NCBI RefSeq assembly: GCF_017875735.1
Contig: NZ_JAGGMZ010000001.1
Location: 2,418,001 to 2,482,000, forward strand
Direction of reading: 5' to 3'
DNA: 64,000 bases
DNA from: Arthrobacter sp. CAN_C5
GTDB taxonomy: Bacteria; Actinomycetota; Actinomycetes; Actinomycetales; Micrococcaceae
Part shown: positions 22,736 to 23,727 of the stretch, piece after piece
Layout: each line of letters opens with the position of its first letter
Numbering within the stretch: position 1 is the stretch's first letter
Translations under genes and position numbers: made by a program
The notes under the pieces: model-generated
Database searches by the model: none
The model's input: the letters and a program-made list of their open reading frames with translations, nothing else
Told to the model about the DNA's origin: nothing

Positions 22736-22993
22736 TTAGGCGAGGGAGAGGAAAAGCTTCTCCAGTTGCTTCTTGTCCATGGTCGCGTCCTCGCTGGTGA
22801 GGCACTGCTCCAGCCCGGTTGCGATGATGGCGAACCCTGCACGGTCCAGGGCTTTCGAGACGGCGGCCAGTTGCGTGATGACATCCTTACAGTCCTTGCC
22901 GTCCTCAAGCATGCGGGTGACGGCAGCGAGCTGTCCCTGGGCGCGCTTGAGCCGGTTGATGACGGGGGTCAGCTCTGATGTGTCGAGTTGCAT
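22736..22993 (-). CDS. CsoR/CstR-family transcriptional repressor (persulfide-sensor type)
   Basis: An 85-aa DUF156 all-helical repressor: [34 protein letters not shown] and GLEQCL. Its two cysteines are at residues 35 and 64, the same 29-residue spacing as CstR Cys31/Cys60, and the histidine that copper-sensing CsoR has before the second cysteine is absent (ATGLEQC). That pattern suits a sulfane-sulfur sensor rather than a copper sensor. It faces a rhodanese gene across a region with three operator-like palindromes. ATG 22993 with GGAGAAAACC upstream is the start. Confidence 0.85.
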
Positions 22994-23023
22994 GGTTTTC
23001 TCCAGGTTGGCATGTCGTTCAAG

Positions 23024-23082
23024 TATACCCCACGGGGTGTTTTGTATGCCCTTTGGGTGTCTGGAATACTCAGTGGGGTATT
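23024..23082. promoter_or_regulatory. Three CstR/CsoR-type operator-like palindromes
   Basis: Between the divergent repressor and rhodanese genes lie TATACCCCACGGGGTGT (23024-23040), GTATGCCCTTTGGGTGT (23044-23060) and AATACTCAGTGGGGTATT (23065-23082). Each follows the pattern (A/T)TA(C/T)(C/G)CC-N-GGG(T)-TAT/GT known for CsoR/CstR operators. They cover the likely promoters of both genes, suggesting autoregulated control by the CstR-like protein. Confidence 0.7.
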
Positions 23083-23115
23083 CACTTTTCATGCTCGACG
23101 GAAGGAAAAGACTCC

Positions 23116-23727
23116 ATGGCCCACGGCCCCACCATTCTCAAGTCCGTCACCGCCCAGCAGTTGCTCAGCTGGCAGCAGGAACACGAGGACGTTGTCGTGA
23201 TCGACGTGCGCTCGGCGGCCGAGTTCGCGTCCCAGCACATCCGCGGAGCCTGCAACGTCCCGCTCCCGCTCTTGTCCGAGCACGCCGGGGAGTTCGCCTC
23301 CCGGCTCCACAGCCGGGTAGTGCTGGTGTGCCAGTCAGGTGCCCGCGCCGAACAGGCACGGCAGCGCCTCAATGGCGTAGGGCTCGACGCCGCCTACGTC
23401 CTTAACGGGGGCACCGCCGGGTTCGCTGATGGCGGGGGTGCAGTGGTCAGCGGCAAGACCCGCTGGGATCTGGAACGCCAGGTCCGCATGACCGCCGGCT
23501 CGCTGGTGCTGCTGGGTCTCACCGGCGGCCGCTTCCTTTCGCCGAAAATCCGCAGCCTCGCCGGAGTGATCGGGGCAGGGCTGACCTTCTCCGCAGCCAC
23601 CAACACGTGCGCCATGGGCACAGTGCTCTCAGCCCTCCCCTGGAACCGTGCCCAGGATGAGCACACCCGCGAATCCGCCATCGCGCAACTGCCGCCACGC
23701 CGGGACAGTACAGCAATGGCCTCATGA
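23116..23727 (+). CDS. Rhodanese with C-terminal DUF2892 membrane hairpin (YgaP-like)
   Basis: A 203-aa protein. The rhodanese domain (residues ~7-115) has the active loop with Cys72 in [11 protein letters not shown] and the [22 protein letters not shown] start. A DUF2892-type pair of membrane segments follows ([20 protein letters not shown] and [21 protein letters not shown]). YgaP-like proteins transfer sulfane sulfur at the membrane. ATG 23116 follows GGAAGGAAAAG; a longer frame upstream runs through the operators and is not the start. It is divergent from the CstR-like gene. Confidence 0.9.

Follow-up and report, generated by a model that had tools for sequence, protein, structure and literature searches.

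A probable CstR/ScCsoR-type sulfane-sulfur switch in a cassette undergoing loss in Arthrobacter

CstR of Staphylococcus aureus is described as a dithiol repressor (C31/C60) that senses per- and polysulfides and controls sulfide-detoxification genes (PMC5480029), and the CstR of E. faecalis carries the cysteine pair C31/C62 (PMC9405070). ScCsoR of Streptomyces coelicolor (C37/C66) is reported to bind the sequence ATACCn6GGTAT and to repress its own gene as well as genes for a dioxygenase, TauE and a rhodanese. It is released by polysulfide, and Cys-to-Ser proteins bind the DNA but stay unreleased (PMC7533328). Tandem operator pairs are known in the CsoR family (PMC12724321, PMC3902906). Among the literature matches listed, as judged by titles and abstract openings, there was no CsoR-family promoter with three operators, which leaves its absence unproven.

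The locus studied here lies in a 64-kb stretch of DNA, analysed as a whole and referred to as the window, from the soil bacterium Arthrobacter. It comprises a small repressor gene and a divergent rhodanese gene (Table 1), separated by 122 bp (22994-23115). The repressor matched PF02583 at 82 bits (cut-off 22.8), indicating a CsoR-family fold, and its two cysteines, C35 and C64, have a spacing of 29 residues, roughly that of the pair in CstR/ScCsoR sensors. Alignment to 2hh7 places Gly60 at the position of the CsoR histidine, which we take to be a copper ligand; the lack of a histidine here is likewise a trait of CstR/ScCsoR. Copper sensors of the CsoR/RicR type use a Cys-His-Cys ligand set, which the repressor lacks by virtue of Gly60, and three paralogues in the same genome keep an H-x-x-(H)-C motif at this position in the alignment. 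When the best 80 of 495 loci were aligned together with the window and its own-genome paralogue, both C35 and C64 were found in 82/82 sequences, and position 60 was G in 80, S in one and T in one. With regard to the rhodanese, PF00581 (residues 13-104) and PF11127 (YgaP-like membrane domain, residues 119-172) were both above cut-off. Thus the preliminary description was right about the cysteine spacing, the missing histidine and the YgaP-like rhodanese facing the repressor across 122 bases, and homology supports its assignment of a CstR-like sulfane-sulfur repressor lacking the copper ligand set. A sulfur-transfer or oxidation gene next to the repressor, as in CstR/ScCsoR systems, is present here as the divergent rhodanese and in the near relative G027 as a complete cassette. 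The genome contains eight PF02583 genes, one of which, L004 (C1:2297923-2298165), carries an internal TAG. On its other side the repressor is accompanied by a gene for a SigK-type sigma factor (239.8 bits, NCBIfam cut-off 226) overlapping a GAF-domain gene (window 21144-22608, minus strand).

Table 1. Features of the repressor-rhodanese locus, in window coordinates
Feature	Position	Strand	Basis
CstR/ScCsoR-type repressor, 85 aa	22736..22993	-	ATG at 22993; PF02583; alignments
Predicted operator S1 (repressor side), ACACCCCGTGGGGTAT	23025..23040	-	1 mismatch; matrix score 22.1
Candidate rhodanese promoter: TTGTAT 23042-23047, 16-bp spacer, GAATAC 23064-23069	23042..23069	+	read from sequence
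Degenerate remnant of the middle operator, S2, short by one base	23046..23060 (about 23045-23060)	-	matrix scores; G027 alignment
Predicted operator S3 (rhodanese side), ATACCCCACTGAGTAT	23066..23081	-	1 mismatch; matrix score 21.4
YgaP-like rhodanese, 203 aa, CQSGAR loop intact	23116..23727	+	ATG 23116; PF00581, PF11127; divergent from repressor
tauE gene scar, 61 bp	23732..23792	+	85% identical to L138:6996-7056, inside G027 tauE, E 1.6e-14

Three evenly spaced palindromes had been proposed for the gap, and the outer two stood up to closer inspection. S1 and S3 were the only matches to the consensus ATACCC-N4-GGGTAT (ATACCCN4GGGTAT) at one mismatch or fewer in the 64-kb window, and both lie in the gap. 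A loose search allowing three mismatches gave 21 matches against 13.15 expected in the window, so that only the strict matches are informative. The whole genome (3,860,921 bp) held eight strict places, compared with three for the reversed-pattern control: S1 and S3, a pair at 189,786 and 189,807, a triplet at 192,934, 192,969 and 193,014, and one at 2,677,350, the only one without an explanation. Measured against the 16-bp ATACC-N6-GGTAT operator, the gap contains two sites, each departing from the longer consensus at one position, and a degenerate third. We also built an operator matrix from 43 related three-site promoters, by which S1 and S3 scored within the ranges of their conserved classes (15.3-23.6 and 16.3-24.0, respectively). 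The strict matches and the matrix scores exclude chance palindromes as an explanation for these two, which are predicted operators for the sulfane-sulfur repressor. Read as a 16-mer, the middle palindrome scored -17.8; read as a 15-mer, it scored 6.5. The minimum of the 43 conserved middle sites was 17.7. A 15-mer score of at least 6.5 was reached at 10 of 127,972 window positions, corresponding to five places on both strands, the middle site among them. On its own sequence the middle palindrome is hardly better than chance, and a chance origin is not rejected on that basis; it is called a decayed operator solely because it aligns to the intact site of G027 with one base fewer and substitutions. 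The outer sites are spaced 41 bp in the window instead of 42.

The preliminary description further held that three sites exceed the usual one or two, a view that does not hold among near relatives. It should be underlined that our promoter set (n = 82) consists of the best 80 of 495 confirmed stretches from the repressor scan, mostly Arthrobacter and its kin, plus the window and the own-genome paralogue, and thus leans to near relatives. In this set, at up to three mismatches, 44 promoters had three sites, 33 had two, four had one and one had none; plain base shuffles yielded 0.08 sites per sequence, and at least three sites in 0 of 4100. The spacing in the 44 three-site promoters was 21+21 bp in 39, 21+20 in two, 21+22 in two and 23+57 in one, which leaves 43/82 with three sites spaced 21 and 20-22 bp apart. 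Of 395 genomes of the family, 53 (from 6 of 32 genera) have the exact array at up to three mismatches and none has the reversed pattern, so a restriction to this genome is excluded. Among 149 genomes of the order it occurred in three, all belonging to the same family (11 of the 149 rows), and in 0/138 outside it; no spread across the order was thus seen with this one pattern at up to three mismatches, which looser arrays would escape. The window's own genome fails the pattern because of its middle site, and the near relative G027 keeps all three sites at the orthologous locus. Loss of the middle site with retention of the outer ones recurs at four other loci (L045, L109, L117, L120). Moreover, L038, L050 and L080 have 15-bp forms in place of 16-bp sites (15-mer scores 23.2, 19.1 and 19.8), and in both L038 and L119 the middle site takes a clean 15-bp form.

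A tree was built by a quick method from the repressor and rhodanese of 66 rows; 36 of its 62 inner branches were drawn open. One starred clade holds 12 rows, among them the own-genome paralogue, and all of these are two-site. The other, also starred, has 54 rows: 40 three-site and eight two-site promoters, four rows without a label, the window and G027. The window and G027 form a pair with a starred value of 100. Leaving out these two and the unlabelled rows, the two/three-site label changes five times. The three-site reading holds for the relatives and probably for the ancestor; for the window copy as it stands it is not supported. One record titled Vibrio cholerae 35D (L082) carries an Arthrobacter-type repressor-rhodanese cassette, probably through contamination or a mislabelled contig.

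The 43 regular arrays also appear to have half-sites that double as elements of the rhodanese promoter. All of them have ATACCC as the left half of the middle site, and the hexamer abutting its right half is TTGACT in 29, TTGCAT in 9, TTGCGT in 2 and something else in 3. Seventeen bases on, overlapping the right half of S3, follows TAATAC (22/43), CAATAC (13) or another hexamer (8, including three GAATAC). The right half of S3 itself is GAGTAT in 37, CAGTAT in six and GGGTAT in none. In this arrangement S2 would lie between the -35 and -10 of the rhodanese promoter and S3 would cover the -10, and promoter needs may explain why the operator halves are imperfect. The GAATAC of the window is no proof of promoter decay, since the same hexamer is found in three of the 43 intact arrays.

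In G027 the repressor faces a rhodanese-tauE-persulfide dioxygenase series, the tauE product having a PF01925 domain and the dioxygenase being encoded by a metallo-beta-lactamase/rhodanese gene. The surrounding genes (CNNM-type, GAF, SigK-like, carboxylase and CoA-transferase) are shared with the window at 83-97% identity, and the repressor and the rhodanese are 99% and 90% identical, respectively. At the window locus the rhodanese is kept, tauE is reduced to the scar that precedes the carboxylase gene, and the dioxygenase gene is gone. Of the best 80 of 495 loci, most have rhodanese, TauE and dioxygenase-type genes adjoining the repressor, and with a stricter filter a rhodanese lies within 1 kb in 59 of these 80. 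Both the scar and the frequency of these neighbours favour loss over gain. The array was once part of a larger rhodanese-tauE-dioxygenase cassette, most of which this genome no longer has at the locus. Two further relatives, G024 and G015, gave no rhodanese match at the orthologous place and retain one operator site each. Matches to the SigK-type and GAF genes adjoin the repressor in G027, G024 and G015 as well.

Selection was estimated with NG86. For the repressor, dN and dS were 0.005 and 0.518 between the window and G027, 0.032 and 1.025 between the window and G024, 0.034 and 0.776 between the window and G015, and 0.042 and 0.69 between G024 and G015, both of which are without the rhodanese. 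The values between the window and G027 were 0.061 and 0.398 for the rhodanese and 0.022 and 0.469 for the carboxylase. The repressor is thus under strong purifying selection even where the divergent gene is gone, which suggests that it acts in trans.

A second cst-type cluster at about 0.19 Mb of the same genome is probably such a trans target. It encodes a repressor 80% and a rhodanese 62% identical to those of the window, together with TauE and two metallo-beta-lactamase/rhodanese proteins, and holds five of the eight strict genome sites, that is, nearly all the clear ones outside the window. The pair of operators, 21 bp apart, lies in the promoter of the paralogous repressor. All members of the triplet (C1:192934-192949, 192969-192984 and 193014-193029) are perfect 16-bp palindromes of the operator type; they are spaced 35 and 45 bp and precede a metallo-beta-lactamase/rhodanese gene of the dioxygenase type. 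The genome also contains a third CstR-like repressor at about 2.303 Mb (L015:8000-8269, minus strand), 54% identical to that of the window, with the first cysteine kept and the second replaced by Ile. It faces a metallo-beta-lactamase-fold gene (PF12706, 8405-9202, plus strand) across a gap with two perfect 15-bp palindromes, ATACCN5GGTAT (8325-8339 and 8345-8359). At E 1e-25 this paralogue was found only in its own genome among the 57 searched. It was considered as a partner of the 15-bp middle relic, for which nothing spoke beyond the common 15-bp length.

We consider a CstR/ScCsoR-type sulfane-sulfur switch in a cassette undergoing loss to be the likely nature of this locus, and weighed it against three other readings. 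That the repressor is instead a metal sensor (copper CsoR/RicR, nickel RcnR) or the formaldehyde sensor FrmR is highly improbable. Such sensors share its Pfam family, the RicR, FrmR and RcnR models do match weakly, and its matches among solved structures are mostly named copper-sensing or CsoR. However, these model scores (44, 34.4 and 26.8 bits) are far below the cut-offs of 175, 133 and 138, there is no histidine at the copper position between the cysteines, and none of the seven window neighbours scanned was named as a copper gene; ligand residues and model scores together led us to reject copper, nickel and formaldehyde sensing.

The two remaining readings concern the state of the control region. 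One, which builds on the initial suggestion, is that the rhodanese is under graded control by three working sites that differ in strength. The conservation of three sites in the kin speaks for this, and the middle remnant, retaining some half-site character at its 15-mer score, could bind weakly, 15-bp forms being present in L038, L050 and L080 and in the palindromes of the third paralogue. On the other hand, the window site scores far under all 43 conserved middle sites, and for TTHA1953, a related repressor with a different motif, one base fewer between the half-sites is reported to cost about 15-fold in affinity (PMC10318464). As the middle site is degenerate, graded three-site control is unsupported for the window copy and seems quite doubtful in this genome; in the intact arrays of relatives it may apply. 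Less far-fetched, if still unlikely, is that the rhodanese side is becoming a pseudogene and the repressor is kept for targets elsewhere, making local control irrelevant. The loss of tauE and the dioxygenase gene, the decayed S2 and the 16-bp promoter spacer fit such a course, as do the absence of a rhodanese match in G024 and G015 and a dN/dS of about 0.15 for the rhodanese against 0.05 for the carboxylase and 0.01 for the repressor. Yet the rhodanese frame is open, its dN/dS is well below 1, and S1 and S3 are intact.

In the switch that we favour, the reduced repressor would sit on its 16-bp operators and block both its own gene and the divergent rhodanese, and modification of the Cys35/Cys64 pair by persulfide or polysulfide would, by analogy with the homologues, release it. 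The ancestral control region would have had three operators two helical turns apart, with S1 at the repressor promoter and the other two on the rhodanese promoter as outlined above. In the window S2 has decayed and the genes behind the rhodanese have disappeared, the strongly conserved repressor probably also acting in trans on the second cluster. More tentatively, and somewhat short of an even chance, we picture an Arthrobacter-like persulfide switch with a lineage-specific three-operator array whose imperfect half-sites serve as -35 and -10 of the rhodanese promoter, with tetramers on one face of the DNA and a steep or graded response, the repressor turning into an orphan trans-regulator of the second cluster after cassette loss. 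The locus is a further actinobacterial case of a probable sulfane-sulfur switch, and one in which the loss of the operator array can be traced. The natural series from three intact sites through a decayed middle site to orphan repressors with one site would allow testing of what extra operators contribute in the CsoR family.

Known systems resemble the locus to different degrees. CsoR of Streptomyces lividans has comparable type 2 G-tract operators with TAC/GTA ends, each bound by two tetramers, but is copper-responsive, with operators before copZA operons and csoR (PMC3902906). YrkD of Bacillus licheniformis is a CstR-like repressor released by elemental sulfur; it differs in heading a cluster of 11 genes that responds to NreBC as well and in having its bound sites in two separate regions (PMC9918477). 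S. aureus CstR shares the spacing of 29 residues between its cysteines, whereas it controls a cstA-cstB-sqr operon (PMC5480029). ScCsoR, like the window repressor, is an actinobacterial CsoR-like protein with a cysteine pair 29 residues apart and 16-bp ATACCn6GGTAT sites. Its targets, namely its own gene and those for a rhodanese, a persulfide dioxygenase and TauE, are the same as in the original cassette, of which the window has lost tauE and the dioxygenase gene; its dioxygenase promoter has two sites, at -48 and -9, whereas the window array had three, 21 bp apart (PMC7533328).
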